Source of the DNA: a virus
Virus record (IMG/VR): IMGVR_UViG_3300025543_000033
Coordinates: 1-54,635 of that record
Direction: 5' to 3' (one strand)
DNA: 54,635 nt
The translations under genes were made by a program, and so were the position numbers. The notes below the pieces were generated by a model, which had not been told where the DNA came from, did not search any database, and was given only the letters and a program-made list of their open reading frames with translations. Each line of letters opens with the position of its first letter. The first letter of the stretch is position 1. Positions 4,507 to 48,777 of this stretch are shown here, one piece after another.

Positions 4507-4550
4507 TCTGGTTATATTAATTGTTATACTTCTAAGGAGGTGAAAAGGAA

Positions 4551-4649: not shown

Positions 4650-4655
4650 TAATAT

Positions 4656-4727: not shown

Positions 4728-4748
4728 CTAACAACAAAAGGAGATGAT

Positions 4749-4874
4749 ATGTCTAAAATAGAAATAGAACACTTAAAGAAAGTGAATAGTTCTTTAGAAA
4801 GAACTGAAAATAAATTGAAAGAAATAGAAATAAAATTAAAAGAAATAACCAAAACATTGGAGAGAATATGTTAA
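4749..4874 (+). CDS. 41-residue coiled-coil peptide
   Basis: No known function. The sequence is lysine/glutamate-rich with leucine and isoleucine at heptad spacing (KLKEIEIKLKEITKTLERI), so a single coiled-coil helix is expected. A strong ribosome site (AAAGGAGAT) precedes ATG at 4749. The stop overlaps the GroES start by seven bases, so it probably couples translation of GroES. Confidence 0.5.
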   Translation: MSKIEIEHLKKVNSSLERTENKLKEIEIKLKEITKTLERIC

Positions 4875-5164
4875 AACCATTTGACGCAAGAGTAGTTGTT
4901 CAGAAACCTAAACGAGAAGAACAAACTGCAAGTGGAATTATATTACCGGATACCGTATCTGAACAAACACAAACTGCACAAGGTATTGTGATATCAGTTG
5001 GTCAAGGTTCAAGAAATATGACAACCGGTGAATATATGCCAATACCAATCAACGAAGGTGATACTATCGTGTATACGAAGTTTAGTGCAACAGAAATTAA
5101 TCACGAAGGCCAAGATTATTATGTTGTAGCTGAAAGAGATATCATCGCAGTAGTTGAGAAATAA
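4868..5164 (+). CDS. groES: GroES-like co-chaperonin
   Basis: The lid of the GroEL folding chamber. The protein is 98 residues long, as usual for GroES. It opens with LKPFDARVVV, has a mobile-loop region around ASGIILPD (22-29), the GQG segment near 47, the roof region and the conserved GDTIVYTKF near 66-74, and ends with ERDIIAVVE. T4 uses gp31 and other phages use their own lid to fold the major capsid protein in host GroEL; the same role is likely here. tRNA-Cys follows directly. Confidence 0.9.
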   Translation: MLKPFDARVVVQKPKREEQTASGIILPDTVSEQTQTAQGIVISVGQGSRNMTTGEYMPIPINEGDTIVYTKFSATEINHEGQDYYVVAERDIIAVVEK

Positions 5165-5165
5165 T

Positions 5166-5237
5166 GTGGTCGTGGCAGAAAAGTAATGCGTAGGATTGCA
5201 AATCCTATTTGTGTTGGTGCGAGTCCAACCGACCACT
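5166..5237 (+). tRNA. tRNA-Cys (anticodon GCA)
   Basis: Acceptor GTGGTCG/CGACCAC. Anticodon stem TAGGA/TCCTA with loop TTGCAAA gives anticodon GCA. T stem GTTGG/CCAAC with loop TGCGAGT. The D arm is weak (GCA/TGC). It starts one base after the groES stop. Confidence 0.88.
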
Positions 5238-5248
5238 CAAAAAATTAC

Positions 5249-5277
5249 TTGACATTAATAAATTAATTTTGTATATT
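5249..5277 (+). promoter_or_regulatory. Strong sigma70-type promoter
   Basis: TTGACA at 5249-5254 and TATATT at 5272-5277 with an ideal 17-base spacer. The predicted +1 is near 5284, 13 bases before the ATG at 5297, leaving room for the TTGGAGG ribosome site. Confidence 0.75.
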
Positions 5278-5296
5278 AAAAAAAATTGGAGGTTAT

Positions 5297-5422
5297 ATGA
5301 GTTTAAGATATAGAACAGAAAGATTCTTTGATAGATACAATCATCTAATGGAATTCATTAGAACGATACTTGCTATCATCACCGTTACATTACAACTTAT
5401 TATATTATCAAGATTAGTATGA
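5297..5422 (+). CDS. 41-residue membrane peptide
   Basis: Function unknown. A basic N-terminal part (RYRTERFFDRY) is followed by one membrane helix (IRTILAIITVTLQLIIL). TTGGAGG lies five to six bases before the start. The stop overlaps the next gene in ATGA. Confidence 0.55.
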   Translation: MSLRYRTERFFDRYNHLMEFIRTILAIITVTLQLIILSRLV

Positions 5423-5934
5423 TAGAGAATTGTATTAAGTGTGATAATCTAATACCAGATGAAAGAGTTCATCTTGGTTATCGTGAGTGTGTGGATTGTT
5501 CATCAGTTCAACCATATCAAGCACACGTCGTGTATCCACACAAGACAGGTGCTTATGTTCAACCCGTAACACAAGAACAAAAAGAAAACCTTAATCGTTT
5601 AGATAGACGAGCAGTCAAAACATCTAATCGTTTAGGAACATCTCGTTTGTCTGGTTATGATACATTGGTCAGAACTGATACCAAACCCGAACACAGAGAT
5701 TTACCACCACGACCAGCACCAAAATACAATCACACAAATTTTAATGATAGTTTCAAACCAACGATTAATACTTATAAGAAGAAAGGTTATATCGTAACAA
5801 TCAATTATTTGAAACAACTATTTAAGAAAAACAAAATCAATATGATTACCAAAAACAATTTAGTCAATACATTAACCACTATTCATATGATGGATAGAAA
5901 AACAAGAAAGAGATATTTGAATGGCATTACTTAG
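5419..5934 (+). CDS. Hypothetical protein with N-terminal zinc ribbon
   Basis: The family is not recognised with certainty. The first 30 residues carry CIKC and CVDC, a four-cysteine ribbon like those of DksA-type fingers. A proline-rich basic middle and a lysine-rich tail follow (around 115-171), as in a nucleic-acid-binding protein. It overlaps its neighbours on both sides, within a tightly packed run of genes from 5297 to 8681. Confidence 0.55.
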   Translation: MIENCIKCDNLIPDERVHLGYRECVDCSSVQPYQAHVVYPHKTGAYVQPVTQEQKENLNRLDRRAVKTSNRLGTSRLSGYDTLVRTDTKPEHRDLPPRPAPKYNHTNFNDSFKPTINTYKKKGYIVTINYLKQLFKKNKINMITKNNLVNTLTTIHMMDRKTRKRYLNGIT

Positions 5935-6067
5935 CACAGGAACTTTCCGAAACGGAGCAAAGAGAACTCGTCAAGGTAAAGGAAGAAGTACAAAGTTCGG
6001 AACAAAACCACAAACACATTTAGGGTCAGTTCCAAAGAAATCATTACAACGATATAAAAAGAAATGA
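5921..6067 (+). CDS. 48-residue strongly basic protein
   Basis: Function unknown. The product is rich in lysine and arginine with many glycine, serine and threonine residues, and is probably nucleic-acid-binding or unstructured. Support comes from overlap with both neighbours: its start lies inside the previous gene and it ends in ATGA with the next start at 6064. No strong ribosome site is visible, so translational coupling is likely. Confidence 0.5.
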   Translation: MALLSTGTFRNGAKRTRQGKGRSTKFGTKPQTHLGSVPKKSLQRYKKK

Positions 6068-6537
6068 AACCAAGTTATGTAGACTTTGATGAAAGCCGGT
6101 ATCATTGGAAATCTGATGTCGACTATCGTAAAAACCCACATCTATATAAAGTAGGTCGTGGACAACAAGGTGTATTGGTTTGTGAACCATACAAATCAGA
6201 ACTTCATATTCATTGGAGATTTAAAACACCAGAGATTGCTATGGAATCAGCCAGAACTATTTACAATATGTTTTTGGATTATTTAGAACAACAAGATTTT
6301 GTCGGAGCAGATATGGCTAAGAAATATCTACATATGGGATTTACGAGAGCCAGAAGATATTGGAATCATAGTAGTGGAAAGAAATGGACAAGAGAAAATG
6401 GTAAGTGGGAAGTATTACCGAAAGACCAATCGGTAGAAAGATTTAAATCAAGTTCTGATATATTTCAGAAGTATTGGAAGTTAGCACGAGAGAACGAACA
6501 ATATCGTGAAATGAAAAAGGAGTTTATGTGCCGTTAA
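6064..6537 (+). CDS. DUF4385 family protein
   Basis: The function of this family is unknown to me, but the pattern is typical: an opening of M-x-P-S-Y-x-D-F, then VDYRKNPHLYKVG, GVLVCEPYKSE, HWRFKTPEIA and VGADMAKKYLHMGFTRARRY. At 157 residues the protein is full length. The gene lies between the small basic protein and an HNH endonuclease, with which it overlaps by ten bases. Confidence 0.75.
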   Translation: MKPSYVDFDESRYHWKSDVDYRKNPHLYKVGRGQQGVLVCEPYKSELHIHWRFKTPEIAMESARTIYNMFLDYLEQQDFVGADMAKKYLHMGFTRARRYWNHSSGKKWTRENGKWEVLPKDQSVERFKSSSDIFQKYWKLARENEQYREMKKEFMCR

Positions 6538-7013
6538 GTAGGTGGTCATCACGACACAAGAAAACATTTGCCGAAAAGAAAAAGAAAGAGTGGGACGGAA
6601 ACTTTCGTTATCCACCTAAACCAGATAGTTATTATACTAAGACCAAAGGACATTGTCGTTGGTGTAGTAAAGTGATTACTAATGAAGACGGAACTATCAA
6701 TGAAAGAAAAAGTTGGCACGAAGATTGTGCTACCGACTATTTATTGATATATCACAGTGGAGAACAACGAGCCCAATTATGGAATCGTGATAAAGGACTT
6801 TGTAATCATTGTGGTAAGTTTAGTCTTAGTTGGCAAGCAGACCACATCAAACCTTTGGTAGAACAAAAGGGAGTTAAAGAAGAAGACTTAGATTGGGATT
6901 ATTATAAATTAGAAAATTTACAAACACTATGTAAGAAGTGTCATAGGAAAAAGACAAACGAAGAAGTAGTGTTAAAAGGTAAGGGTAAGATTAATTATAA
7001 AAAATGGAGATAA
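6528..7013 (+). CDS. HNH endonuclease
   Basis: Metal-dependent DNA endonuclease of 161 residues. Cysteine pairs CRWC (near 42) and CNHC (near 94) frame the core. The HNH motif reads ADHIKPL, then ...LENLQTLCKKCHRKK, with the catalytic DH near 105 and the zinc CxxC near 137. The start is GTG at 6528, after AAGGAG at 6517-6522; the ATG two bases earlier belongs to the end of the DUF4385 frame. It could be a free-standing homing endonuclease or a packaging/replication nuclease. Confidence 0.85.
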   Translation: MPLSRWSSRHKKTFAEKKKKEWDGNFRYPPKPDSYYTKTKGHCRWCSKVITNEDGTINERKSWHEDCATDYLLIYHSGEQRAQLWNRDKGLCNHCGKFSLSWQADHIKPLVEQKGVKEEDLDWDYYKLENLQTLCKKCHRKKTNEEVVLKGKGKINYKKWR

Positions 7014-7814: not shown

Positions 7815-8056
7815 ACAAAGAAAACATAATCACACAAATCAAAAAGAACTCAAACGAAGTTTATCGTATATCAGAAAAAGAATACGAAGGGTATCGTTTC
7901 ATTGATGTTCGTATCTATTATCAAGATAGACAAACACAAGAGTGGAAACCCACAACCAAAGGTATCAGTATTATGCCGAACAACGCAGAAGAAATCATCA
8001 ATGGTATTTTAAAAGCAATGGAAGTAATGGGTTTTACAAAAGATAAAGATGTTTAA
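7811..8056 (+). CDS. PC4-like single-strand DNA-binding protein
   Basis: Resembles the transcriptional coactivator p15/PC4 domain. The visible pattern is YRISEKEYEGYRFIDVRIYY, then WKPTTKGISI and a C-terminal helix starting at NNAEEII, which matches the beta-sheet-plus-helix fold that binds single-stranded DNA. The protein is 81 residues from ATG at 7811, chosen because it overlaps the upstream stop (ATGA); an upstream in-frame ATG at 7754 would lie far inside the membrane-protein gene. The role could be replication or transcription. Confidence 0.7.
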   Translation: MNKENIITQIKKNSNEVYRISEKEYEGYRFIDVRIYYQDRQTQEWKPTTKGISIMPNNAEEIINGILKAMEVMGFTKDKDV

Positions 8057-8681
8057 TTATTCCAAAGAACATAATATATTATTCGTTCACATTCCAAAGA
8101 ATGCTGGTTCAACCATTAGAGATGAACTTGGTATTACTAAATCAGCACATTATCCTTTATCAGTTTTACAATCTTTTATGGACAAAGATACATTTGATAA
8201 TGCTATAAAGATAGCAGTGTTTAGGAATCCTTGGGAAAGAATGGTAAGTTGGTACCGTTATAGACAACAAAAGAATCAAGACCCTAAAGGTGTTAGTTTT
8301 TCTTATTGGTTAAGAAACGGAATAGCTCAATATAATATGGAGGCGTTCGACTTCTTACCACAAATAAAATGGGGTTGTAAATTAGATAGTTTTAAAATTT
8401 CTGAAGGATTAGATTACATTATTAATTTTGAACATCTTGATGAACAATGGAAAGAGTTATGTGATATAGAAAAAATTAATATTAAGAAACTTCCTAAAAC
8501 AAATAGTACAGGCACATATGATTATATAGAACAATACAATATATTGGAAGATGTTGTATTAGTGAGAAATATATTTAGGTCAGATGTCCATATGTTAAAT
8601 TATCATTTTGGTGAACCAAATGACTTTCCATTACTAAAAGGTAGTGAAGAAATTCTTACTTATATACATAATAATAGTTAA
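8049..8681 (+). CDS. Sulfotransferase family protein
   Basis: Would transfer sulfate from PAPS to a sugar or other acceptor. The 5'-phosphosulfate loop reads HIPKNAGST (residues 12-20), and the 3'-phosphate site FRNPWERMVSWY lies near residues 58-69, both typical of carbohydrate-type sulfotransferases. Length is 210 residues, on the short side. The acceptor is unknown. It is the last gene before a promoter with an A-tract at 8680. Confidence 0.8.
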   Translation: MFNYSKEHNILFVHIPKNAGSTIRDELGITKSAHYPLSVLQSFMDKDTFDNAIKIAVFRNPWERMVSWYRYRQQKNQDPKGVSFSYWLRNGIAQYNMEAFDFLPQIKWGCKLDSFKISEGLDYIINFEHLDEQWKELCDIEKINIKKLPKTNSTGTYDYIEQYNILEDVVLVRNIFRSDVHMLNYHFGEPNDFPLLKGSEEILTYIHNNS

Positions 8682-9005: not shown

Positions 9006-11078
9006 ATGATTAAAAATAATTATACTGACTTTTGGAACGATATTCAAGTCAACACTAATGTTGATATTGACAATAAACCAAAAGTTGACCATATCGCATT
9101 AGCAGGTTATCGTAGAGCTATTGCAAACTTTGTCAACATTGTAACTAATCGTTCTGATATCAATGTTCGTTATCAAACCAATGGTGATTCTTACACCGAC
9201 GGAAAGACCGTAACAATTGGTTCTAAGATTGACGAGAAAAGTTTTGACCACGTTGTTGGTCTGGCATTACACGAAGGTTCACACATCTTATTATCTGACT
9301 TTCGTTTCCTTAGAGAACTTAATCATCACACACCGGAAGAATTAATTATGACCGGTGAAGATTTAGGTTTCACTAAAGCTCAAACACTTAATCATCTTAA
9401 AAATATGTTGAACTATGTTGAAGATAGACGAATTGACTATTATGTCTTTACTACTTCGCCTGGTTACAAAGGTTATTACCACGCTATGTATGACAAGTAT
9501 TTCCACTCTAATGCAATTACCAAAGCATTAAAAGATAATACTTTCGGTAATGACTTAACATTAGATAATTATATGAATCGTATTATCAACTTCACTAATA
9601 AAGAATCTGACTTAGATGCTTTACCAGAGTTGAGAAATATATACAGAAAGATTTTCAGTTCAGTCAAAACTATGACTACTATGGAAGAAGCATTCGGTGT
9701 AGCACTTGGGTGTATGACTATTGTTTACAACAACATCAAACCTTTACCAAAGTCAACTGATATGAAACCAGTTGGACAAGGTGGTCAAGGTGCTGGTCAA
9801 GGTGGTGGTCAATCTAAATCAGATATGTTAAATGAAGCAGCTGACAAACTGGCTCACGGCGACTACAATGGATACCAAGAGATTATGGATAAGATTTCAG
9901 AAACTGATTGGACAAAACTCAAAGAACAAGTTTCTGATTCTACTGAAGTCAATGATACCAAGTTTCCTAACTTGACACCAAACCAAGTCAAGACTTTAGA
10001 AAACGCTTTGTCAAGACAAAAAGAATTTATGCAAGGTCGTCCACAAAAAGTCGGTAGACTTACTAAGAAAGATTCTTCTATGGTAAAGTCTATGGAAGAC
10101 TCTGGTGTGACTATAAAAGAAGTCGGTAAAGACATTGAACAAAATAGTTGGAGAAGTAATCGTAAAGATTTCACCGGTTCTACACAAGTATTGTTTGTTA
10201 AAAAAATTACTCAACAAATGATTGACGACAGAGTATTTCCAAATCTATTTTATTATGGTTATCGTTCTATTGGTTATACCGCCGACTCAATTATCGCTGG
10301 TAAAAAACTTGGAACTCTATTAGGTAAAAAATTACAAGTTCGTTCTGAATCAAGAACACTAAAAAATTCAAGATTAGATTCTGGTCGTATTGACAAAAGA
10401 TTAATCGCTGAACTTGGGTTCGGTAATTCAAAAGTTTTCTCTACGACTTTCGTAGAAAATTATAATGACGCTGTTATTCACATCTCGGTTGATGCAAGTG
10501 GTTCAATGGGTGGTGAGAAATGGAAAAACACTATGACCGCAGTTGTTGCGATTTGTAAAGCAGCTTCAATGATTAGTGGATTAGATGTAGTGGTGTCTTT
10601 CAGAACTACTCACTCTGATAGTGGTTCTATGGGTCAAAGACCATTAGTTGCTATCGGTTACGATAGTCGTGTTGATAAGTTCAGAAAGATTGAGATGTTA
10701 TGGCCAAGTATTTTTCCAGGTGGAACTACACCAGAGGGATTATGTTACGAAGCCATTATGGACGACTTTGTTCCAAGTGCTTCTAATCGTGATAGTTATT
10801 TCTTAAACTTCTCTGACGGAATGCCAATGTTCGGAAGTAGTGATTATGACTACTACGGAGAACAAGCATTACAACACACTAAAAAACAAGTCAATGAGAT
10901 TATCAAGAAAGGTATTCAAGTGTTATCTTACTTTGTCGGAGATGATGATAGAAACAACGATAACAATATGAGAGATTTTAAAAAGATGTATGGTAATGAC
11001 GCTGAGTTTGTTGATGTTACCAAAGTATCATCATTAGCAAAAACTATGAACTCATTATTCCTGGAGAAAAAAAATTAA
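9006..11078 (+). CDS. CobT-like VWA protein with putative metallopeptidase motif
   Basis: A 690-residue protein. The N-terminal third has HEGSH at residues 89-93, an HExxH zinc-protease signature, followed by VEDRRID near 138-144 that could supply the third ligand. A Gly/Gln-rich linker lies near 255-270. The C-terminal third is a von Willebrand factor A domain with the MIDAS motif DASGS at 496-500 and a TTPEG segment. This matches VWA-like CobT/predicted-metallopeptidase proteins that work with MoxR-type AAA+ ATPases, and such an ATPase is the next gene. Role in phage unknown; remodelling of a host complex is an inference. The message appears leaderless. Confidence 0.75.
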   Translation: MIKNNYTDFWNDIQVNTNVDIDNKPKVDHIALAGYRRAIANFVNIVTNRSDINVRYQTNGDSYTDGKTVTIGSKIDEKSFDHVVGLALHEGSHILLSDFRFLRELNHHTPEELIMTGEDLGFTKAQTLNHLKNMLNYVEDRRIDYYVFTTSPGYKGYYHAMYDKYFHSNAITKALKDNTFGNDLTLDNYMNRIINFTNKESDLDALPELRNIYRKIFSSVKTMTTMEEAFGVALGCMTIVYNNIKPLPKSTDMKPVGQGGQGAGQGGGQSKSDMLNEAADKLAHGDYNGYQEIMDKISETDWTKLKEQVSDSTEVNDTKFPNLTPNQVKTLENALSRQKEFMQGRPQKVGRLTKKDSSMVKSMEDSGVTIKEVGKDIEQNSWRSNRKDFTGSTQVLFVKKITQQMIDDRVFPNLFYYGYRSIGYTADSIIAGKKLGTLLGKKLQVRSESRTLKNSRLDSGRIDKRLIAELGFGNSKVFSTTFVENYNDAVIHISVDASGSMGGEKWKNTMTAVVAICKAASMISGLDVVVSFRTTHSDSGSMGQRPLVAIGYDSRVDKFRKIEMLWPSIFPGGTTPEGLCYEAIMDDFVPSASNRDSYFLNFSDGMPMFGSSDYDYYGEQALQHTKKQVNEIIKKGIQVLSYFVGDDDRNNDNNMRDFKKMYGNDAEFVDVTKVSSLAKTMNSLFLEKKN

Positions 11079-20754: not shown

Positions 20755-21909
20755 ATGAGTTTTGAGAAATTTACAGGTGTTACAGAATTTGACTTTGAAC
20801 TAAATAAACAAAAGTTCATTGAGAATTTGGATTACCTAAAAACTATGTCGGTTGAAGAATCCACTCTTTATAAGAAGTGGCAAGAGTTCAACAAAGATGT
20901 AGAAAAATCAAGACAGTGGGCAACTCAAATAGATGCCATCAGAAATAAGTTATGGACACCAACAGACATTTATAACAAAGAATTAACTATTCAAGAAATT
21001 CAAAACTTAGACCCGATTATAGAATTTACCAAAGATGCATCAGAGTGGACATTAGTTAGAAAGCTAATTCACACAATGGATTGGAATGCTAATCCAGGTC
21101 GTAATCAAAAGTATTATGTTAAAGACAGAACAACAGATAAAATACTTGGGTTAGTGTCATTAGGTAGTGATGTCACAAGTATCAAAGTTCGTGATGATTT
21201 CTTAGGTTGGAAAAAAGACGACAAGTTTAAAAATCATAAACTAAACAATACAGCTATTGCATCAACGATTGTTTGTGTTCAACCACTTGGGTTTAATATG
21301 TTGGGTGGTAAATTAATTGCATCAATGGCAACATCTTCTAATGTAAGAGAACAATGGAAAAAAGATTATGATGATTTATTAGTTGGATTAACCACAACAT
21401 CTTTGTATGGTGTTCACTCACAATACAACGGAATACCTTTGTGGAAAACATTAGGAGAATCCAATGGAAAGATTTTAATCAAACCAGATGATAGTGTTTA
21501 CTTGGTTTGGAATCAATGGTTAAAAGAAAACCATTATGAAGAACACTTGAAGGCTGTATCCAATACAGGCCCAAAACAAAATGTTATTAATAGAATTTTT
21601 AAACACTTGGAAATTAAACCAAAAGAATATGAACACGGATTTAAACGAGGTGTTTACTTTGCAGATATGTATGAAAACGGAAAAGAATTTCTAAGAAGTG
21701 AAATCGAAGAAAAAGATTTAGTTATGAAACAAAAGTATCAACAAGACACAGATTATATAAATAATTGGTGGAAACCAAAAGCAATCAAACGATATACAAA
21801 TCTATTGGAACAAAATAGAATCAAACCAGAATCATTATTTTATTCCAATATAATCGGTATGACTTGGGAAGAAGCCAAAGAAACTTATTTAAAAGAAGTC
21901 GGTAGATAA
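20755..21909 (+). CDS. DruA/DUF4338-like protein
   Basis: The middle of this 384-residue protein (about 115-225) follows the DUF4338 pattern: KYYVKDRTTDKILGLVSLG, RDDFLGW, a run of Asn, then a hydrophobic strand and GGKLIASMA, with SLYG...GIPLWKTLGE after it. DUF4338 is the domain of DruA from the Druantia defence system; its biochemical role is not known to me. The N-terminal 110 and C-terminal 150 residues are helical and charged. It stands at the head of a DNA-modification-like cluster. The assignment is moderate. Confidence 0.5.
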   Translation: MSFEKFTGVTEFDFELNKQKFIENLDYLKTMSVEESTLYKKWQEFNKDVEKSRQWATQIDAIRNKLWTPTDIYNKELTIQEIQNLDPIIEFTKDASEWTLVRKLIHTMDWNANPGRNQKYYVKDRTTDKILGLVSLGSDVTSIKVRDDFLGWKKDDKFKNHKLNNTAIASTIVCVQPLGFNMLGGKLIASMATSSNVREQWKKDYDDLLVGLTTTSLYGVHSQYNGIPLWKTLGESNGKILIKPDDSVYLVWNQWLKENHYEEHLKAVSNTGPKQNVINRIFKHLEIKPKEYEHGFKRGVYFADMYENGKEFLRSEIEEKDLVMKQKYQQDTDYINNWWKPKAIKRYTNLLEQNRIKPESLFYSNIIGMTWEEAKETYLKEVGR

Positions 21910-21994: not shown

Positions 21995-23518
21995 GTGAAA
22001 AAAACTAAATTTAAAGTAGAAGAAATTCCTAATGTAAAGGAAACTTCTAATTTAATGCCACCCGAGTGGTATAATGAAAAAGAAGGTGGTTATGTCTACC
22101 TTTGGACAAATTTAACAAATTTAAAATTAAATGAAGGCGTTACAGATGAATCTGAATTAAAGCCAGTTTACTATCTTGGTTTAGGAAGTAAAGGAAAACT
22201 TGGATACAAGGACGGAACTTATTATAGTTCTTGTAACGAGAAACAATACAAATTAGACCAGAGTAATCCTAATGTCGAATGGAGATTTGAAATTTTAGAT
22301 TTTTATGAAGAATATGAAATGGCTGAATATACAGAATCTTTTAAATTAGTGAATGTAAAAGCAGCTCAATCCCCACTTTATTACAATGGTAATAATGGAT
22401 TTGTAGAAATTAAAGAAAGTCTCACTAAAGATGTCATTCAACTAAATACAGACATTGAAGAAGCATCAAACTATTTTATGAGTTTACCGATTGACAAACG
22501 AGAAGGCTCTTACAAGGGATTTAGATTTAAAGTTGAACCTTGGTCAGTTGTTGAAAGCTTTATCCCTTATCAGTTACCAGAGCGTGAGGAAGACACTACG
22601 GTTATTGACAGCGTCGCGACAAAAGTTAGAGCGAAACGTGGAGACACAAGTTCTATCCCACCAATCTTAGTTATGAATTTAAGAGACGGTATTCAATTAG
22701 ATGACAATGGAAAGTATTTACAAGGAAATTTAAATTTTGCTGGTAATCACCGAAAAAAAGGTTGTCAAAACGAAGGAGCAACACACGCTAATGTTTTGTA
22801 TGTTCCAGATTATAGAACAGCTAACTATGGAAACATTCAAATTCAACAATTAGCTGCAGCTGACAACCCATTACCCAAAGAACCAAAAAATCCAACTGGA
22901 CAAAATGAACTTGTTAACATTGTAGTTGGAATGTGTCAAGAAAACAACATTCCAGTTTCTCACGAAGACATTGAAGATTATTTGGTATCACTTAATGTAG
23001 ACCCAAAACAACGAACAAAAGTTAAAGATTTAGCAAAAGACAAACAAAAACATCAGACAAACAACACCGTTCCAATCAAATGGAATGCAAAAGGTTGGTC
23101 AGCAGAAGCAAAACGAATCGTTGAGGCTTTAGAAACTGACACTTCAAAAGCAGTTGTTTGTTCGGTTGAAACTTTTAACATTGAGATGTTAATGAGAGTT
23201 TGGCATGAAGCTAATGAAAATCATACACCAATTACAGACTTTACTTATTTGATGTATGGTAGTAATGGCCCTGCTTGGACAATGTGGGACAATGAACCAA
23301 AAGGTAGAGCAAACGCTGACAAGTTGATTGATGCGACAAGAAATGAAGTTTATGACAAAGAAGGAAACTTGATTTCAGAAATCAAGGTACACTTTAGGAG
23401 ACTACCTGGAGAACATGCAAATGTTGGTGTTGATTACCACAACTTTTGGGACTCTTCGCGAAGAGGAAAAACTTGGTTAAAAGACGAAGGTATTACTTTA
23501 CCTAAAAAGGACAAATAA
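21995..23518 (+). CDS. GIY-YIG-like / ParB-N-like fusion protein
   Basis: A 507-residue protein. Residues 30-135 look like a degenerate GIY-YIG nuclease domain: GGYVYLWTN, YYLGLGSKGKL, GTYYSSC and FEILDFYEEYEMAEYTE. Residues about 190-270 resemble a ParB/Srx-type domain with PPILVMNLRDG and the motif AGNHRKKG. The rest contains a helical part and a C-terminal GSNGPAWTMW...HFRRLPGEHANVG region of unknown type. Start is GTG with a strong AAGGAGAC site. It overlaps the glycosyltransferase gene by one base. ParB-like domains in phages are often nucleases or nucleotide-binding regulators. Confidence 0.55.
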   Translation: MKKTKFKVEEIPNVKETSNLMPPEWYNEKEGGYVYLWTNLTNLKLNEGVTDESELKPVYYLGLGSKGKLGYKDGTYYSSCNEKQYKLDQSNPNVEWRFEILDFYEEYEMAEYTESFKLVNVKAAQSPLYYNGNNGFVEIKESLTKDVIQLNTDIEEASNYFMSLPIDKREGSYKGFRFKVEPWSVVESFIPYQLPEREEDTTVIDSVATKVRAKRGDTSSIPPILVMNLRDGIQLDDNGKYLQGNLNFAGNHRKKGCQNEGATHANVLYVPDYRTANYGNIQIQQLAAADNPLPKEPKNPTGQNELVNIVVGMCQENNIPVSHEDIEDYLVSLNVDPKQRTKVKDLAKDKQKHQTNNTVPIKWNAKGWSAEAKRIVEALETDTSKAVVCSVETFNIEMLMRVWHEANENHTPITDFTYLMYGSNGPAWTMWDNEPKGRANADKLIDATRNEVYDKEGNLISEIKVHFRRLPGEHANVGVDYHNFWDSSRRGKTWLKDEGITLPKKDK

Positions 23519-24852
23519 TGTCATTAAGTAGATTCTTATCAGATGACAAAGAATACAAGTATAAAATACTTGTCTATCCAAATATAACTTTCCAAAAAGA
23601 TTTGGAGAAAGATAGTTATGTAGTTGTGTTGGGTAATATAATTAAAGAAATGAATAAACTCAGAAATGATTTACATTGGACAATTATATCGCCGAAGTTA
23701 ATATCAAGTTTACAATTTGACAATACAGAACAATTAATTGTTCCACAACTTACATATCCTAATTCAATGCGAATGTCTTTTCCATTTAAAGAAGTTATGA
23801 CAGCGATTGATTGGACTCGTAATGATTATGATATCGTGTATAGTCATTTACCAGAACACACCGGTCAGTTAAAGAATTTACTTTACAACACAACTAATAT
23901 TTCACCAACGATAATCGGTTATACTCATTGGACTGAGTTCAAGGAAATAACAAATTACGAATATCAAGTTGGTTTAGCATTTAACATTATTGGTTTATTA
24001 CAACAAGAAAAATGTGGTATCAATACAGAAGCACAAAAACAACTCGTATTGAAAAATGCAAGGGAACATTTTAATGATGATGTCATTAAACAATTAGATG
24101 AAATTCTTGAACCACATTATCTCGGTTGGGAAACACCAAACTATGAAAAACAAACAACAGATAAAAATATAATTGTTTACAATCATAGACCACACACATA
24201 CAAAAACTATCCTTGGTTCTTACAACAAATGGATAAACTTTGGGAACAAAGACAAGACTTTGAAGTTTGGGTTCCATTAGCAGACTCAAAAGAAAAACAA
24301 TATATGACAATTGACAAGTATGATAGGTTTGGATATTTTTCTAAATTATCTTCTTGTAAAGTAGGTGTTTGTTGTAAACAAAAATATGAAGGTTGGGCAG
24401 TCTCTGCTACGGACGGAATGTCAGTTGGAGTTCCTTATATGTTTTCAGATGACGGAAGTTATCACGAGTTAGCAGATGATGCCGGAATATATTATAAAGA
24501 TTCAGATGAGTTTTTAACACTAATGAATAAAGTATTAGATGACGAAAACTTTAGAAATGAATATTCTGAAAAATCATTACAACGATTTGAGAATAGTAAA
24601 TGGGATAAACAGATTTTAAAAATTAACGATATGTTTCAAACTGCTATTGACAATTTACAAGAAAGTAAAGAAACTGATTCATACAAACAAATATTAAAAA
24701 TTATCAAAGATAAAAAGTCAGTTACCAAACGAGACATTACTGATGAACTTGGTTGGGGTATACGAATAGCATTTAATTCATATCGAAATAGATTACGAAA
24801 TGAAAAAGATATAAGATTAACAAAAAATAGATACGAGGTTATTGAACAATGA
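23518..24852 (+). CDS. Glycosyltransferase (GT-B) with C-terminal helix-turn-helix tail
   Basis: Residues 1-370 look like a GT-B fold glycosyltransferase: IIVYNHRPHTYKNYPWFL starts the second Rossmann half, and KYEGWAVSATDGMSVGVPYMF followed by GSYHELADDAGIYY is the nucleotide-sugar-binding block with its conserved glutamate. The last 70 residues (SYKQILKIIKDKKSVTKRDI, then ELGWG and a basic stretch) resemble a winged helix-turn-helix. A DNA-binding tail on a sugar transferase suggests DNA as the acceptor, as with T4 glucosyltransferases; this is inference. Confidence 0.7.
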   Translation: MSLSRFLSDDKEYKYKILVYPNITFQKDLEKDSYVVVLGNIIKEMNKLRNDLHWTIISPKLISSLQFDNTEQLIVPQLTYPNSMRMSFPFKEVMTAIDWTRNDYDIVYSHLPEHTGQLKNLLYNTTNISPTIIGYTHWTEFKEITNYEYQVGLAFNIIGLLQQEKCGINTEAQKQLVLKNAREHFNDDVIKQLDEILEPHYLGWETPNYEKQTTDKNIIVYNHRPHTYKNYPWFLQQMDKLWEQRQDFEVWVPLADSKEKQYMTIDKYDRFGYFSKLSSCKVGVCCKQKYEGWAVSATDGMSVGVPYMFSDDGSYHELADDAGIYYKDSDEFLTLMNKVLDDENFRNEYSEKSLQRFENSKWDKQILKINDMFQTAIDNLQESKETDSYKQILKIIKDKKSVTKRDITDELGWGIRIAFNSYRNRLRNEKDIRLTKNRYEVIEQ

Positions 24853-41303: not shown

Positions 41304-44153
41304 ATGTTTCGTTCATTAAAAACAATGGTTATGTCATTAGTGATGTTTGGTTTTGCCTTTGGTCAAACACCAATCATTAGAGTAAAACAATTAGGTAGTT
41401 GGTCTACACCAGCAATGTGGTGGAAAGACTCAGTTACACAAAATTTAGATACATTTCTAGCACAAGATGTTAATAATCCAGCATACGATAATAATAATTT
41501 TGATATCTGGAGAGATAAAATCTTAGAAATGGAAGTCACATTAGATGATAATGGTGCAGATATTACTGCACTTAGATTTGATATTGCCTTTGATAACGAT
41601 TTAATCACTTGGGTAGAATCAGGTGAAACATCAATTAACGCTTGGTCACAAGGAGATTCCAAAGTTGTTAAAGGAGGTTACATTGATAGTTGGACAGAAG
41701 GTGATGAATCATCAGGTGCCGATTATTCTTTTGAAGTAGTTCATTATGCAAACACCGGTTATCAAGATTCATTAGCCGTTGGAACATCAGAAACTTTATA
41801 TGAAGAAAGTATTTCTGACAACAGATACGATTGGTTGAGAATCACTATGGTTTCTCACGGAGTTGATGCCGATTCCGACGGAACACCAGATTATACTTTT
41901 GGTAATGGTGATGGAACTCAAACACAAGTAATAAAATTATATTTTAAAATCAATGATGTCGTTGATGACTTCGCACCAAGAGCATTTAGAATACCAACAT
42001 TTTACAATGGTTCATCAGGTTATTACACTTACGCTTCTGATGATTATTTATTAGATTATAAAGTTTACATAGACGGAAATTGGGGAGATTCATATACAAG
42101 TGAAAGAACTTATAATGGTGGTGCAAGAGGAGATATCACACTTCACCCGAAACTTGTAGACATTGAAGGATATATGAGATACATTGGAGAATACGACGGA
42201 ACAAATGCATTCTCACGAAACAAATATCCATTTATGAAAGTTCGTTTTGAAGTAGATGAAACCAATCCAGATAACCTTTCTAATTGGAGAAACATAAGAG
42301 ATATTAATTATCCAACAAGTTTAACAGACGAATCTCTAAATGATGATGTTATGGGGACTTACGACGAATACGGAACATTTGCATTAGGGTATCAACATAT
42401 GAGATACTATGAACAAAATGCCGGAACAACCGGAGACCAAAAAATTCAAAATCAAGGGTTTAAAGATGTAAGTTATTGGTATTGGACATACACAGATGAT
42501 AAAGGATATTTTAATATATCGTTACCACGAAACAACAGATATCGTGTATCGTTCTGGCCACCAGACGACGGAGATGTCGTTGGAGACCACACAACTTATT
42601 TATTAGATAGAGGTGCAATCACTAATATCAATGACGCTATTGCATCATTTAATTTTCAATCCAACAAATACGAAAACTCAAATGATATTGATGTCGCAAC
42701 ACCAAGTGCATATTTAATCGGTGATGTAGACGGAGATGATGTATTCCAATTAAACGATACATATTTCTTATGGGCATACACATCAGGAGTGTTTGACAAT
42801 ACCTATACACACACCAATGGTGAAACTTATCAATCTTGGGCATCCATAGATAATTTAAAATCTAACGGAACATCAGAAACTTTAAATTATTATCAAGCAT
42901 ATGATGGAGTCACAAAAAACCAAAGACGAGAGTTCAGTATATTTGTTGATGATGATTTAGCACAAGAAACCACAACACTAACACAAGATGCTGGTGGTGT
43001 GATTTATTTAAATCCATTAATGGACGAAGTTCAAACAGGTTTGGATACATTGAGTATTAAGATTGGAGCAGGTAGTTCTACATTTGGAAATGATGTAAAC
43101 CCAGATTATTTATTTAAAACAACTGATGCTTCTAAACAAGTAGATATCATTGGAACTGATAATGATTCAGATATCGGATATTACTTTACAGGTGATATGA
43201 ATTTAACAGGTGTTAAAGTTGATTCAAGTGGAACAGCAATAACACCAACACTTGACGGAACAACATATTATCGTTGGGGTAATGGGACACCACCGAGTGA
43301 ATGGGCAAGAACTCAAGAAATGAAAAACTTCTTAGCCAAGACTGATGTGTTCTTAACTTTACCAGCAGATTCAACAGTAAAAGTTCAAGCAGGTAATCAA
43401 GTTGTAGTTCCACTAACCATTACACCAAGTGTTGATGAGATAAGTGGAGAACCTACAAAGATTGCAGGATTTGAGTTTGAAGTGAAATACAACACTAATG
43501 AACTACACTTTGTAGATGCTCAAACAGGACTTTTACCTGGCCCTTGGATGACTTATGTAAATGAAAGTGAAGTTGATGAACAAGGATACAAAACTTTATC
43601 ATTTGGTGGTATGGACAACTCACCAAACAATGCACCAAGAGATTATTACATCACAGAAGAAATGGTCGCATTACAATTAGTTTTCCAAGCAGACTTTCCA
43701 GATACCGAGTGGACAGAAGCAGATTTAACTTTTGTCGGTAAGGCAAACGCTGGTAATCCAAACGGAGATGATTTGGTAATGGAAAGAAATGACGGAAAGA
43801 TTTTAGTTTGGAATAAATATTGGGCATTCGGTGGTGGACAACCAACAGAAGACGAAATGACCTATGTTTATCCAAATCCATTTAAACAAAGAACAAACTT
43901 CCAATTCTTTATGGAACAAGAAGGTAATGTAAAGATTAGTATTTACAATATCGTAGGACAAAGAATTGGTGTCGTATTAGATGAAGTCGTAGGACAAGGT
44001 ATTCATACATTTGACTTCACAAATGAACCAAGTGTTTGGTTACCAGAAGTATCAGTTTATGAAGGATACGAAGTTCTTGAACCAGGTATTTATATCTTTG
44101 TTATGGAAACAGGTAGTAGAATTAAATCCAAGAAATTTACAGTATTAAAATAG
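41304..44153 (+). CDS. Secreted T9SS-type cargo with cohesin- and dockerin-like parts
   Basis: 949 residues. Residues 1-20 are a signal peptide (MVMSLVMFGFAFGQ). About 40-235 is a cohesin-like beta domain (ALRFDIAFDNDLITWV). GDVDGDDVFQLND near 473 resembles a calcium-binding dockerin loop. About 690-800 is a second cohesin-like domain (GFEFEVKYNTNELHFVDA). Residues 854-949 form a type A T9SS sorting domain: YPNPF, VKISIYNIVGQRIG, GIHTFDF, PGIYIFVMETG and KKFTVLK. In the FCB group this tail sends proteins through the outer membrane and is then cut off or attached. A phage protein with such a tail is unusual; see findings. Confidence 0.8.
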   Translation: MFRSLKTMVMSLVMFGFAFGQTPIIRVKQLGSWSTPAMWWKDSVTQNLDTFLAQDVNNPAYDNNNFDIWRDKILEMEVTLDDNGADITALRFDIAFDNDLITWVESGETSINAWSQGDSKVVKGGYIDSWTEGDESSGADYSFEVVHYANTGYQDSLAVGTSETLYEESISDNRYDWLRITMVSHGVDADSDGTPDYTFGNGDGTQTQVIKLYFKINDVVDDFAPRAFRIPTFYNGSSGYYTYASDDYLLDYKVYIDGNWGDSYTSERTYNGGARGDITLHPKLVDIEGYMRYIGEYDGTNAFSRNKYPFMKVRFEVDETNPDNLSNWRNIRDINYPTSLTDESLNDDVMGTYDEYGTFALGYQHMRYYEQNAGTTGDQKIQNQGFKDVSYWYWTYTDDKGYFNISLPRNNRYRVSFWPPDDGDVVGDHTTYLLDRGAITNINDAIASFNFQSNKYENSNDIDVATPSAYLIGDVDGDDVFQLNDTYFLWAYTSGVFDNTYTHTNGETYQSWASIDNLKSNGTSETLNYYQAYDGVTKNQRREFSIFVDDDLAQETTTLTQDAGGVIYLNPLMDEVQTGLDTLSIKIGAGSSTFGNDVNPDYLFKTTDASKQVDIIGTDNDSDIGYYFTGDMNLTGVKVDSSGTAITPTLDGTTYYRWGNGTPPSEWARTQEMKNFLAKTDVFLTLPADSTVKVQAGNQVVVPLTITPSVDEISGEPTKIAGFEFEVKYNTNELHFVDAQTGLLPGPWMTYVNESEVDEQGYKTLSFGGMDNSPNNAPRDYYITEEMVALQLVFQADFPDTEWTEADLTFVGKANAGNPNGDDLVMERNDGKILVWNKYWAFGGGQPTEDEMTYVYPNPFKQRTNFQFFMEQEGNVKISIYNIVGQRIGVVLDEVVGQGIHTFDFTNEPSVWLPEVSVYEGYEVLEPGIYIFVMETGSRIKSKKFTVLK

Positions 44154-44162: not shown

Positions 44163-45008
44163 ATGAAGAAATTATTAATATTATTATTAACAGGTATGTT
44201 GTTTGGACAAGCAAACAATGTCTTTACAATCAATCCAAGTATATCAAGTGCAGGACAAGGTAATACAGGTATCGGTGATTTTAATTCCGATAATCTATTT
44301 CACAATCCAGCATTTGTTGTGGATAATCAATCAGTAGATTTTTCATATGTTGCTTGGTTACCAAACTTAGTTGATGATTTAGGATACTTTAATCTACAAT
44401 ACACTTCTGGTCAATGGGGTGTAGAAGTATTTCACTTTGATTATGGTTCTCAATTAGAAGCAAATGAAGGTGGAGTAATCTTAGGTGAGTTCAATTCTAC
44501 ATCAACAAGACTTGGTGTTTCTTATGGACACGAACTTTGGAATTGGAACTTAGGATATAGATTTAATATTCTGAATCACAATTTTTATCATACCAATGGT
44601 AGTTCCAATGGATACACTTTTGATGTCGGTGCTTACAAAACATTCAACGATACAAATGTAGGTTTGGTATTGAAAAACATTGGAATACAAAAAGAATTTG
44701 AAGACGATAAAGTAACATTACCAACATCATTAGGATTAGGTGTAAAACAATCTTTTGGTGATTTTCATTTATTGTCAGACTTAACAATGTATCAAGATTA
44801 TTTAACTTATGGTTTGGGTGGTAAATATGAACTTGGATTAGCATCTTTAAAGTTCGGTATGTATTCTGAACCAGATTTTGATGTAAATTATTTTACCTTT
44901 GGGGGTGGAATCAAAACAGATTATATTAACATAGATGTAGCTTATCTATTCAACAACGATAGTGTTCACAATCAAACACTTATGTTGTCGTTTGGATTTG
45001 ACTTATAA
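44163..45008 (+). CDS. PorV/PorQ-like outer-membrane barrel protein
   Basis: 281 residues. Signal peptide MKKLLILLLTGMLFGQ. Then NPSISSAGQGNTGIGDFNSD and LFHNPAFV, the usual opening of PorV/PorQ/FadL-like barrels, followed by about a dozen amphipathic strands and a C-terminal aromatic/hydrophobic strand ending in SFGFDL. In T9SS, PorV takes cargo from the translocon to the attachment complex and PorQ is related. Nine bases separate it from the T9SS cargo gene, so the two are very probably cotranscribed. No other T9SS core gene is in the window. Confidence 0.65.
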   Translation: MKKLLILLLTGMLFGQANNVFTINPSISSAGQGNTGIGDFNSDNLFHNPAFVVDNQSVDFSYVAWLPNLVDDLGYFNLQYTSGQWGVEVFHFDYGSQLEANEGGVILGEFNSTSTRLGVSYGHELWNWNLGYRFNILNHNFYHTNGSSNGYTFDVGAYKTFNDTNVGLVLKNIGIQKEFEDDKVTLPTSLGLGVKQSFGDFHLLSDLTMYQDYLTYGLGGKYELGLASLKFGMYSEPDFDVNYFTFGGGIKTDYINIDVAYLFNNDSVHNQTLMLSFGFDL

Positions 45009-45019: not shown

Positions 45020-45424
45020 ATGGCAAAAAATCAAATAGATGCGGAATCATTGGTAGATAATCTACAAAACGCAAAGTTTGGATTATCAATTCAAAATATC
45101 GTTGCACTCGTAACTGTATTATCATCTTTAATCGCAGGTTGGTATACTTTTACAGGTCGTATTGATGCTTTGGAAGAAGTAGTTCAAGGATTTGCAGAAG
45201 CATCAGACATTGAATTAGTTGGACAAAAGTTAGACGGATTTGAAAAACAAATCGACTACCTTACAGAAAAGATTGATTCATATGAAGGTGTAGATTTATC
45301 AGATATCAAAGGTGATATTGCTGGATTAAAAGGTGATGTAAAATCTTTCAATAATGCTATCAAAGCACTTGATACCAAGATTGAAGAATTTCACGGAGAC
45401 CCATTAGCAAAGTTTAAAAAATAA
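45020..45424 (+). CDS. Single-pass membrane protein with long coiled coil
   Basis: 134 residues. A membrane helix lies at about 24-44 (SIQNIVALVTVLSSLIAGWY). It is followed by an acidic coiled coil to the C-terminus (VGQKLDGFEKQIDYLTEKID). It could be an inner-membrane spacer or lysis-type protein; not recognised. AAGGAG precedes the start. Confidence 0.55.
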   Translation: MAKNQIDAESLVDNLQNAKFGLSIQNIVALVTVLSSLIAGWYTFTGRIDALEEVVQGFAEASDIELVGQKLDGFEKQIDYLTEKIDSYEGVDLSDIKGDIAGLKGDVKSFNNAIKALDTKIEEFHGDPLAKFKK

Positions 45425-45571: not shown

Positions 45572-46264
45572 ATGAAACATTTATTCAATGTGGTTTTATG
45601 TTTGTTTTTGTTAAATTGTGCAACAACTGCTCAAACCGCAAAAACAAAAGTACAATCTAAAATAGCATCATATGAGGCAGAAAAAACCTTAGATGATATT
45701 AAATGGTATGATGGGGAACCAGAAGGAATTCAGTTAATTCAGATTTCTATTCCACAGACTATCATTAATCAATACCCAGAACTTCGTGACAAAAGAGTAG
45801 GATTTGGTGTAACCAATCGTATCATTGAAGTCTTGGAAGAAGCAGGACGATTTTACTTTGTGGAAGAAAAAGACGAAGTGTTAAATAAAATCGTTCAAGA
45901 GTGGGAAAGAAGTGTTGATGGATTGTTAGACCAAGAATTAAATGTCGGAACATTTGCAACAACTAAATGGTTTGCTTATGCAGAAATCTATGATTTCGCA
46001 GTATCTTCATCAGAAGAAATTCAAAAGAGAAAAGCAAAATTAACCGATACCACAATGGTTGGTGTTCAAGTTCGTTTAGTTAATGTAGAAACCGGTAAGT
46101 ATATAACAGGTAGTGGATTAGGAACTTCATCAAAAGAAGGTGAAGGTTTATTGAAAAACCTTGATATGTCTTTTGACCAATCTACTGTTTCATTTGCAAC
46201 AACAGGTGCAGTCATTACAGCAGTGGCTAATGTGTTGAGAAGAATGGAAAAAAGAGGTTGGTAA
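45572..46264 (+). CDS. CsgG-family outer-membrane lipoprotein
   Basis: 230 residues. A lipoprotein signal (FNVVLCLFLLNC, cleavage before Cys16) is followed by a CsgG-like domain: VGFGVTNRIIEVLEEAGRFY, VEEKDEVLNKIVQEWERS, the strand pair VQVRLVNVETGKYITGSGLG and a C-terminal helix. CsgG forms a nonameric export pore for curli in Gram-negative bacteria. ATG 45572 is preferred (AGGAG upstream, signal peptide starts there) over an upstream in-frame TTG at 45542. CsgG-like genes in phages have no established function that I know. Confidence 0.7.
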   Translation: MKHLFNVVLCLFLLNCATTAQTAKTKVQSKIASYEAEKTLDDIKWYDGEPEGIQLIQISIPQTIINQYPELRDKRVGFGVTNRIIEVLEEAGRFYFVEEKDEVLNKIVQEWERSVDGLLDQELNVGTFATTKWFAYAEIYDFAVSSSEEIQKRKAKLTDTTMVGVQVRLVNVETGKYITGSGLGTSSKEGEGLLKNLDMSFDQSTVSFATTGAVITAVANVLRRMEKRGW

Positions 46265-46269
46265 AATGA

Positions 46270-47256
46270 ATGAAATGGTTACTCACTATATTATTATTAG
46301 GTAGTCTTTACGGACAAGGTTTTGGATATAATTACATTGACCCTTGTAATCAACAAGCAGTCAATCTAAATTACAAAACCGAGATTACTGAAAAAGGATT
46401 TTGGGTAACTTATTATAATCAAAGAAGATTTTTTACCTTTCAACAAGTTGTTGATGGAACACTACAAAATTGGACACAACAAGTTTATAGTGATTTTGAA
46501 AAACTATTTCCTTGTGCGGTCAATGTAGCAGAAGAAGCATTGGCATCTGCCACATCATTAAATGTAGCAGGTGAATTGGAAGAAGATTCCGAAGAAGATA
46601 TATCGGCATCTGAACCAAGTTTTGTCGGTGGAGATATCGTCAATACATTTTATAGTTATGGTTTAGTTACTTCGTTGAACTCAGTTTATACTGAAGAAAA
46701 CTTTGACTTAACCAAAGAAATGAACTATACAATGAATATTACTTTGGACTTGAAAAAAGTATTAGGATTGTATGGTAGAAGTAATAAGTTTAGAGATAAA
46801 AATCAGAATGCATTTTGGAATGCAGGACTTCTCTATTATAGAACTTTTGAAGGAAGTGATTGGTTAATCACAGGTAATTACGGAAAAGTAATTCGTAATG
46901 ATATCAATGAAGTTGGACTATTGAGTTCATCTTTTGGACAAATATCTAAGTTACCTTTCTTCAATGTGAATATGATGTATGGATATCGGTATCCAATCAA
47001 GTTCAATAAAAATAGTTTAAACTTACAAACTTTCGTAAGTTATACAATTTTTAGATATTATGAAGGATTAAAAACCGATACAAAATATTTATTATTAGAA
47101 AGTCCGATATTAATTTATCCAGGCCTAAATATAGATTTTAATCTTACGAGAACTTTTAAGATTAATTTAGGTTTTTACGTTGGATACAACACTTTGGTAA
47201 ATGATTTAGGAGAACGAAACATAAGTTATTCCATAGTATTTGGAACAAACTTTTAA
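46270..47256 (+). CDS. Secreted protein with probable outer-membrane barrel
   Basis: 328 residues. Signal peptide MKWLLTILLLGSLYGQ. An N-terminal domain of about 110 residues with two cysteines (DPCNQQ, FPCAV) is followed by an acidic linker and then a run of alternating strands (SVYTEENFDLTKEMNYTMN to the end), ending in YSIVFGTNF with a terminal Phe. This is typical of an outer-membrane barrel. Family unknown. Confidence 0.6.
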   Translation: MKWLLTILLLGSLYGQGFGYNYIDPCNQQAVNLNYKTEITEKGFWVTYYNQRRFFTFQQVVDGTLQNWTQQVYSDFEKLFPCAVNVAEEALASATSLNVAGELEEDSEEDISASEPSFVGGDIVNTFYSYGLVTSLNSVYTEENFDLTKEMNYTMNITLDLKKVLGLYGRSNKFRDKNQNAFWNAGLLYYRTFEGSDWLITGNYGKVIRNDINEVGLLSSSFGQISKLPFFNVNMMYGYRYPIKFNKNSLNLQTFVSYTIFRYYEGLKTDTKYLLLESPILIYPGLNIDFNLTRTFKINLGFYVGYNTLVNDLGERNISYSIVFGTNF

Positions 47257-47265
47257 GGAGTAAAA

Positions 47266-47565
47266 ATGAAACGACTATTGATATTATTATTTATGATTCC
47301 ATTAATGGCACAATCCATTAATGATACTGATGAAGCTAAACAAGAGTATAAAGAATCAGTTATGGAACAAGAACAAATGCGTCAAGAAAAATTTAATAAA
47401 CAAAAAGAATTACGCAGAAAACAACAAGTTGATGAAATGATGTTGAGAATGAAAATGAAAGAAAAGAAAAGAAATCAAATCATCAAGAAAAAAATTAGAA
47501 AAGAAAGAATTAGAACATTTATTCTCGGATTGGGAATAGGATATGCAATAGGAGACAACAAATGA
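47266..47565 (+). CDS. Small exported basic helical protein
   Basis: 99 residues. Signal peptide ending in PLMAQ, then a long charged helix very rich in Lys, Arg, Glu and Met, and a hydrophobic glycine-containing tail (FILGLGIGYAIGD) that may insert in a membrane. Not recognised. AAGGAG precedes it; four-base overlap with the next gene. Confidence 0.5.
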   Translation: MKRLLILLFMIPLMAQSINDTDEAKQEYKESVMEQEQMRQEKFNKQKELRRKQQVDEMMLRMKMKEKKRNQIIKKKIRKERIRTFILGLGIGYAIGDNK

Positions 47566-48077
47566 AAAAACTATGGTCAATCATATTACTATGTGGAGTA
47601 GTATTTGCACAATTACCACAACCAACAATGGTTGGACAAGATGATTTGAAAGTTCCTACTTTGTCAATTAACAATTTTGTTAATCAAGCAGAGATTCAAG
47701 GTTTAGAAGATAGTCGTATTTTCTTAGGGATTACCAATATACTAACTGAAAATGTAATGGATTCAAGATATGAATTAGTAGACTTTGATTCAGATTTTGA
47801 ATTGACTGCACGAGTAGTTTATTTAGGTAGACCAAGAAAGTCTGCAACTATCTTAGGATTATTTAGAACAGAATCCACTACAACAGAAGTTCGTGTTGTG
47901 GTTGAACTATTGAATAGAAAAACAGGTAAAATAGTAACTGGTAATGGTATCGGAACAATAGATAAAGTAATCAGTTCCACAGGGTTTCAAATAAATGAAG
48001 ATTTACCTTTTGATAGAAGTGAACTTGGTGGAGCACTTAAAGAGGCAATAGGTAATGCAGTTCAGGACATCTTATAA
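47562..48077 (+). CDS. Second CsgG-like secreted protein
   Basis: 171 residues with signal peptide ending in VVFAQ. Then VPTLSINNFVNQ, LEDSRIFLGITNILTENVMD, FELTARVVYLG and the strand pair VRVVVELLNRKTGKIVTGNG, which resembles the CsgG-type lipoprotein two genes upstream. No lipobox is seen. It ends in a DRSELGGALKEAIGNAVQ helix typical of CsgG-family ends. Confidence 0.6.
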   Translation: MKKLWSIILLCGVVFAQLPQPTMVGQDDLKVPTLSINNFVNQAEIQGLEDSRIFLGITNILTENVMDSRYELVDFDSDFELTARVVYLGRPRKSATILGLFRTESTTTEVRVVVELLNRKTGKIVTGNGIGTIDKVISSTGFQINEDLPFDRSELGGALKEAIGNAVQDIL

Positions 48078-48777
48078 AAATATTTTATCATTAGTAAGTG
48101 CGTTACTATTGTTAGGAACTACGATATTCATCAACAAGTATGATGTGAAACAATTGTATCGTGAGTTTGTAGGTTTGAGATTAAAGGTTCAGATTCAAGA
48201 AGACACAATCAAAAATCTTCAAGAACAATTAGATTATCACATTGAATTATCAGAAAATTTAACTCAAGAACTCGACGACCACAATGAAACTCGTGGTAAA
48301 GAAAACTTACTATTATTAGAACGATTAAAAGAATTAGAACAACAGGTTGAAATACTTTCATCTAAACAATTAACATCAATGACTAATGGTAAAGTCTTTA
48401 GTGATAGATTTGAGTTTTCAGATAAACAAGTCAATCGTGTTGGTCAATACGAAACAAAAGGTCAAGTATTGGTTGCGTGGAAAGATGATTATTTAGCAAC
48501 TAAAAAGGTTGATGTCACAACCACAGGTGAAATAGTTGTTAAACCACAAATAAAAAAGCTTGACAAAGACAAATTTTTTTCGTATATTGATGAGAGTTAT
48601 GTTGGTGGTATAACTATACGCGGACAAGGAGATGTCCAAAAAATAGAACCACCAAGAAACCAATTAAGTGTTGGGCCATTTATAGGTGTAGCGTATAACG
48701 CAACAACAGGTTTAACAGAACCAATTATAGGAATTGGTCTTAACTATAATTTAATTAAATTATGGGATTGGAGATAA
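48055..48777 (+). CDS. Membrane-anchored coiled-coil protein with beta-rich C-terminus
   Basis: 240 residues. A membrane anchor at 10-26 (ILSLVSALLLLGTTIFI), a coiled coil about 35-115 (LRLKVQIQEDTIKNLQEQL), then a beta-rich end (SVGPFIGVAYNATTGL and IIGIGLNYNLI). It overlaps the previous gene by 23 bases. Could span the periplasm. Function unknown. Confidence 0.55.
   Translation: MQFRTSYKNILSLVSALLLLGTTIFINKYDVKQLYREFVGLRLKVQIQEDTIKNLQEQLDYHIELSENLTQELDDHNETRGKENLLLLERLKELEQQVEILSSKQLTSMTNGKVFSDRFEFSDKQVNRVGQYETKGQVLVAWKDDYLATKKVDVTTTGEIVVKPQIKKLDKDKFFSYIDESYVGGITIRGQGDVQKIEPPRNQLSVGPFIGVAYNATTGLTEPIIGIGLNYNLIKLWDWR
48560..48588 (+). promoter_or_regulatory. Internal promoter-like sequence inside a gene
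   Basis: Within the coiled-coil gene, TTGACA (48560-48565), a 17-base spacer and TATATT (48583-48588), with the upstream A-tract and the TTTTTTTCG before the -10 box, match the early promoters closely. +1 about 48595; it could drive the small membrane gene, Nudix and following genes early. Confidence 0.5.

Follow-up and report, generated by a model that had tools for sequence, protein, structure and literature searches.

A conserved phage module with two predicted CsgG-fold proteins, a putative outer-membrane barrel and a secreted cohesin-like cargo

Genes of the module

The window analysed here, i.e. the whole stretch of 54,635 nt (54.6 kb), is taken from IMG/VR virus record IMGVR_UViG_3300025543_000033 and may be a fragment. 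Between 41304 and 48777, it carries the genes listed below, in which the neighbours of CsgG1 and CsgG2 encode secreted or membrane proteins and whose order is kept in close IMG/VR relatives.

41304..44153, + strand: 949-aa secreted cargo with a cohesin-like domain, a dockerin-like Ca-loop motif and a C-terminal T9SS type A sorting domain (TIGR04183; Pfam matches below cut-off; kept in relatives)
44163..45008, + strand: PorV/PorQ-family outer-membrane protein, T9SS shuttle family (NF033709)
45020..45424, + strand: 134-aa protein with one apparent transmembrane stretch followed by a coiled coil (read from its sequence)
45572..46264, + strand: CsgG1, predicted CsgG-fold lipoprotein of 230 aa, lipobox LLNC (AF2 model, Foldseek)
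46270..47256, + strand: 328-aa outer-membrane protein with an N-terminal DPC...PC domain, a linker and C-terminal strands ending in Phe; putative barrel (hhalign, C-terminal OMP-type signals)
47266..47565, + strand: 99-aa charged helical protein, exported (signal peptide and composition)
47562..48077, + strand: CsgG2, predicted CsgG-fold protein of 171 aa with a signal peptide and without lipobox (AF2 model, Foldseek)
48055..48777, + strand: 240-aa coiled coil anchored in the inner membrane, with strands at the C-terminus and an architecture like that of spanins (weak Rz-like PHROG match)

The first-pass annotation had singled out the two open reading frames at 45572..46264 and 47562..48077, which are indeed present and both start with a Sec signal, as a CsgG pair enclosing a probable barrel and a small exported helix. 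The 328-aa protein displays barrel features and is conserved, and the 99-aa protein bears a signal peptide and is helical by composition; the gene of the latter is found among close relatives only. Two members of the same unit located just upstream, the cohesin cargo with its T9SS tag and a PorV-family protein, had been left out.

The cargo matches the sorting domain TIGR04183 (E 6.8e-9, 35.6 bits for a cut-off of 23), and its Pfam matches to cohesin and Por_Secre_tail fall just under cut-off. A dockerin-like Ca-loop motif was read by eye (GDVDGDDVFQLNDTYFL), and the co-occurrence of cohesin-like and dockerin-like motifs in one cargo could permit head-to-tail self-association at the cell surface. 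The next gene product matches NF033709 (PorV_fam) with an E-value of 6e-27 and 95.1 bits (cut-off 90), the equivalog cut-offs for PorV and PorQ not being reached. This PorV-family gene, which directly follows that of the T9SS-tagged cargo, is kept in close relatives, and no counterpart was detected in the more distant loci described below. At the other end of the unit, the 48055..48777 protein gives a weak Rz-like match (phrog_739, E 0.0012); its homology to the spanin-like family of the relatives was not borne out by hhalign (13.9%).

Most signal peptides in the window have a Gln as next residue, a feature referred to as the Q-rule of Bacteroidota in PMC10653852. Together with the T9SS tail, it suggests a Bacteroidota-type host, and the window probably belongs to a phage of T9SS-bearing bacteria of that type. 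Elsewhere, the window holds a sugar-modification gene set (Nol-like carbamoyltransferase, UDP-glucose dehydrogenase-like, galactose-3-O-sulfotransferase-like and glycosyltransferase; 1587-3059, 3056-3886, 8049-8681, 23518-24852) and, at 20755-21909, a phage protein matching Druantia DruA (PF14236, E 1.5e-23).

Kinship and predicted fold of CsgG1 and CsgG2

The Sec signal of CsgG1 (MKHLFNVVLCLFLLNC) has the lipobox LLNC, in agreement with the earlier view of a lipoprotein and in support of an outer-membrane location, while that of CsgG2 (MKKLWSIILLCGVVFAQ) is devoid of lipobox, as is the CsgG1 relative gp17 of phage immuto. The strand-turn-strand motif said to be shared by both proteins is real, with a BLASTP identity of 42% over 65 aa (E 1e-9). 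Profile–profile comparison of 44 CsgG1 relatives with 41 CsgG2 relatives aligned 124 columns with a probability of 97.4% (E 1.1e-11). In a joint tree including the CsgG of E. coli, HTVC008M and Melnitz, CsgG1 and CsgG2 form one clade each (support of 0.97 and 0.91), and the duplication is therefore old. By these sequence comparisons, CsgG1 and CsgG2 are paralogues, so that the claimed kinship of the two genes is borne out at the level of BLASTP, profiles and tree; the best explanation is that they are ancient paralogues within the CsgG/PelC/LptE lipoprotein superfamily.

Assignment to a known family was less straightforward. Pfam, PHROGs and NCBIfam provided no usable match for the pair, and the Pfam CsgG profile (PF03783), proposed beforehand as a check, gave CsgG1 only 9.9 bits (E 0.012) for a cut-off of 20.8; with a limit of E 0.1, it was matched by 3 of the 44 CsgG1 relatives, of which the best reached 0.00097. 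Sequence profiles run against PDB chains returned nothing real, and hhalign against the single E. coli CsgG sequence was insignificant. The single-chain AlphaFold models, of moderate confidence (pLDDT of 76 for CsgG1 and 74 for CsgG2), show a beta-alpha-beta core, long strands and a C-terminal helix. In Foldseek searches of the PDB, all of the top 25 matches of CsgG1 are CsgG (best E 5.8e-8), and the best match of CsgG2 is CsgG 6l7a (E 5.6e-7), followed by more CsgG, PelC, LptE, GNA1162 and FlgT. The match to CsgG has a probability of 1.00 for both models, with modest TM-scores of 0.25–0.55. The models thus argue strongly for a CsgG superfamily fold of the periplasmic domain in both proteins, and the CsgG-like layout put forward from the sequence is found in both predicted structures.

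However, the features by which CsgG makes its own pore are altered. The region of membrane hairpin 1 spans 23 aa versus 28 in E. coli CsgG, that of membrane hairpin 2 (TM2) 27 aa versus 39, and the first hairpin contains 27–43% charged residues across the family. In a gapped alignment, both hairpins and the ARYFGIG/LRYFGIG stretch are retained in the CsgG of pelagiphages and Melnitz, whereas the stretch is lost in CsgG1 and CsgG2. The constriction loop (YPxxNF region) is replaced by a nearly invariant YPELxDKRVG. In addition, nothing in the record, possibly a fragment, matched CsgF, CsgE or curlin repeats, even with E-values as high as 1 allowed; the search for curlin-like repeats covered the whole record and agrees with the initial remark that no curlin subunit is visible. 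Because of the replaced loop, the shorter hairpin regions, the sub-cut-off Pfam score and these absences, a CsgG-type self-made barrel is unlikely. The idea that a CsgG-type ring itself makes the pore is not supported, and a separate barrel-like protein is encoded instead. For the latter (46270..47256), hhalign shows homology to a family of putative barrels present in distant loci (99.5%, E 1.8e-22), whose members have OMP-like C-termini.

Conservation and neighbourhood in other phages

By tblastn, a CsgG1 relative (35.8%) was found in the cultured Flavobacterium phage immuto (gp17), where the neighbouring gp15 (cohesin), gp18 (barrel) and gp19 (CsgG2) also match. A profile scan of viral contigs yielded 232 relatives, of which the best 80 were retrieved. 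Both paralogues are present in 63 of 73 loci (immuto and L033–L104), and the other 10 break off too near CsgG1 at the end where, judging from relatives, CsgG2 would lie. On the cellular side, the single-sequence scan of genomes returned no relative, and the profile scan of genome contigs returned two MAG contigs, both with the phage module; among 395 genomes from the phylum of the first of them, the only positive one was the seed itself. A cellular origin of the family thus found no support in these scans. Since relatives are abundant in viral contigs and nearly missing from genomes, the family is essentially phage-only, which fits the phage operon initially proposed. A distant CsgG2 used as query against phage records brought up no match, and hits to MksE and Zot-like proteins were discarded as chance or low complexity.

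In single-linkage clusters of 40 representative loci, the cargo, a tether named TM16, CsgG1 and CsgG2 occur together in 40/40; the representatives were picked largely from loci with both paralogues, so that for the pair the independent count is the 63/73 given above. A barrel-like gene is present in 38 of the 40. Pairwise distances of CsgG1, CsgG2, barrel and cargo co-vary with r of 0.79–0.92, versus 0.68–0.73 with the endolysin, a correlation that fits a physical unit but is no proof of it. TM16 has one apparent transmembrane helix and a Pro/Ala/Asn/Gln-rich tail of about 57–111 aa with a C-terminal Trp kept in all members, features that would suit a protein tethering an outer-membrane partner from the inner membrane. 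The window protein at 45020..45424 is a possible counterpart of this tether; tests did not establish its homology to the TM16 or holin-like families.

The way in which the cargo is anchored differs among the 40 loci. As counted by motif and checked with NCBIfam, 19 have a PNP-type T9SS tail and 20 an adjoining 120-aa lipoprotein, with none having both and one having neither; with an E-value limit of 0.001, NCBIfam recognised the sorting domain in 18 of the 25 cargos submitted to it. This mutual exclusivity suggests two ways to fix the same cargo at the surface. The lipoprotein (e.g. 9326-9688 of locus L034, and in 19 other loci) adjoins cargos without T9SS tail, and its reading as a detached T9SS tail was discarded (only 22%). 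The cargo cluster also includes additional secreted proteins that resemble C-type lectins and lie near the module, at 4475-6781 of locus L055 and as immuto gp13 (10527-11525 of L031, record annotation).

An endolysin (cluster identity: phrog_181, E 3e-70) lies within 10 kb of the module in 26 of the 40 loci, on the same strand in 25 of these and mostly 1–6 kb away, by raw count; in the other 14, none was found in the flanks covered. In L045, L058 and L103, the endolysin is ∼1.2 kb downstream of the CsgG1 start, and in the former two it sits between CsgG1 and the barrel gene. A holin-like cluster is represented in 34/40 loci (one member matches a holin PHROG, E 0.005) and a spanin-like cluster in 19/40. 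Among those ORFs of the window that were scanned, a subset of the total, none could be identified as an endolysin, a holin or a proven spanin, and PF01471 is absent. The lysis link therefore rests on the relatives: the suggestion that the ring could serve lysis gains from their frequent proximity to endolysin, holin-like and spanin-like genes but finds no recognised lysis gene among the window ORFs scanned.

Possible role and relation to known systems

Most likely, the lipid-anchored CsgG1 and CsgG2 would assemble into a periplasmic ring beneath the outer membrane. Instead of making a CsgG-type barrel, this ring would work with the phage's own barrel protein in a PelC–PelB-like manner. An inner-membrane protein would tether the complex across the envelope, and the complex would be linked to the surface-displayed cohesin cargo, which a T9SS sorting tail would hold outside, a partner lipoprotein taking this part in other phages. 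It would probably be a late product that acts on the outer membrane, remodelling or opening it at about the time when lysis occurs. We hold the structural claim of an assembly with moderate confidence, while the whole proposal of a late envelope complex for both cargo display and outer-membrane opening or remodelling is tentative, a little short of an even chance. Regarding the role, we lean slightly towards outer-membrane remodelling or breach over surface display because of the lysis-gene neighbourhood; on the other hand, lysis does not require a cargo at the surface. The bolder version, in which a heteromeric CsgG1/CsgG2 ring and the phage barrel, connected with both the inner membrane and the surface cohesin cargo, form an outer-membrane breaching machine doing the work of spanins in Bacteroidota-type phages, is less likely than not.

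The same genes may alternatively form a surface-display or superinfection module, whose complex would export cohesin/lectin cargo and attach it to the infected cell, where it would mask receptors or make cells stick together, without any contribution to lysis. This has a substantial, if minority, chance of being correct, as the cargo is found in 40/40 loci with a signal peptide and a T9SS tail or partner lipoprotein, some cargos have a C-type lectin domain, the clade of the window encodes a PorV-family protein, and a phage T9SS cargo was reported earlier (PMC7468147). However, it leaves aside the endolysin, holin-like and spanin-like genes frequently nearby, and the T9SS tail would already be an export route, making the CsgG pair redundant. 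An accessory module, whose proteins would modify host envelope assembly in the manner of LpoB/LptE-like lipoproteins and whose gene order would be historical, agrees with the matches to LptE, GNA1162 and an Acinetobacter lipoprotein at weaker E, but it is improbable given several components that are tightly co-retained and co-diverging. The least probable reading is an orthodox curli pore, in which a CsgG nonamer would secrete a substrate of amyloid-like nature, a function already proposed in pelagiphages. Even if CsgG is the top fold match of both proteins and phage CsgG/CsgF operons exist (PMC7029224, PMC9599517, PMC9004378), it is at odds with the shortened hairpins, the lost constriction loop, the sub-cut-off Pfam score and the lack of CsgF, CsgE and curlin repeats, and the pelagiphage and Melnitz operons have no second paralogue.

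Compared with known systems, the paralogues share with CsgG (PF03783), including that of pelagiphages and Melnitz, the core fold, the signal peptide, the lipobox in CsgG1, the TG-turn motif after the central strand and the presence on phages. They differ from it by the sub-cut-off Pfam score, shorter hairpin regions, the YPELxDKRVG loop, the existence of two paralogues without CsgE, CsgF or curlin, and the extra barrel, cargo and tether. In pelagiphages and Melnitz, phage CsgG occurs with CsgF and curlin-like genes, for which roles in sibling capture and lysis were proposed (PMC7029224, PMC9599517, PMC9004378). PelC similarly combines a CsgG-like fold lacking the CsgG membrane hairpins with a lipoprotein nature and a separate barrel protein (PelB), and its ring has twelve subunits (PMC12141448); the phage module has two paralogues and no polysaccharide genes seen, and its barrel and ring are putative ones. 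Like the lysis cassettes of phages with spanins, the module comprises an inner-membrane protein whose tail could span the periplasm and an outer-membrane lipoprotein, often by endolysin or holin-like genes, but it has many components, a CsgG fold and a secreted cargo, with no spanin sequence match beyond E about 1e-3. One survey reports Bacteroidota phages with unimolecular spanins only (PMC12596118); in a second one, phages of Bacteroides and Croceibacter appear among those without spanins (PMC6139136). Finally, the Cryophage cargo (PMC7468147) is likewise phage-encoded and bears a T9SS type A sorting tail, but the present one differs from it by its cohesin/dockerin-like nature, its fixed module with the CsgG pair and barrel, and a PorV-family protein also encoded by the phage.

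In the literature searched, mostly without subscription journals, paired hairpin-reduced CsgG-fold proteins with a barrel, a tether and a cohesin cargo are undescribed, and this paired, curlin-free phage version of the CsgG fold appears to be new. It indicates that phages make much wider use of this fold than in the curli operons of pelagiphages, and that a T9SS-sorted cargo can be phage-encoded along with a PorV-family protein. As outer-membrane breakage by Bacteroidota phages is poorly known, this widespread module, which may be a way for such phages to remodel or breach the bacterial outer membrane, offers concrete genes for study, including those of the cultured phage immuto (Flavobacterium sp. 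LMO8).
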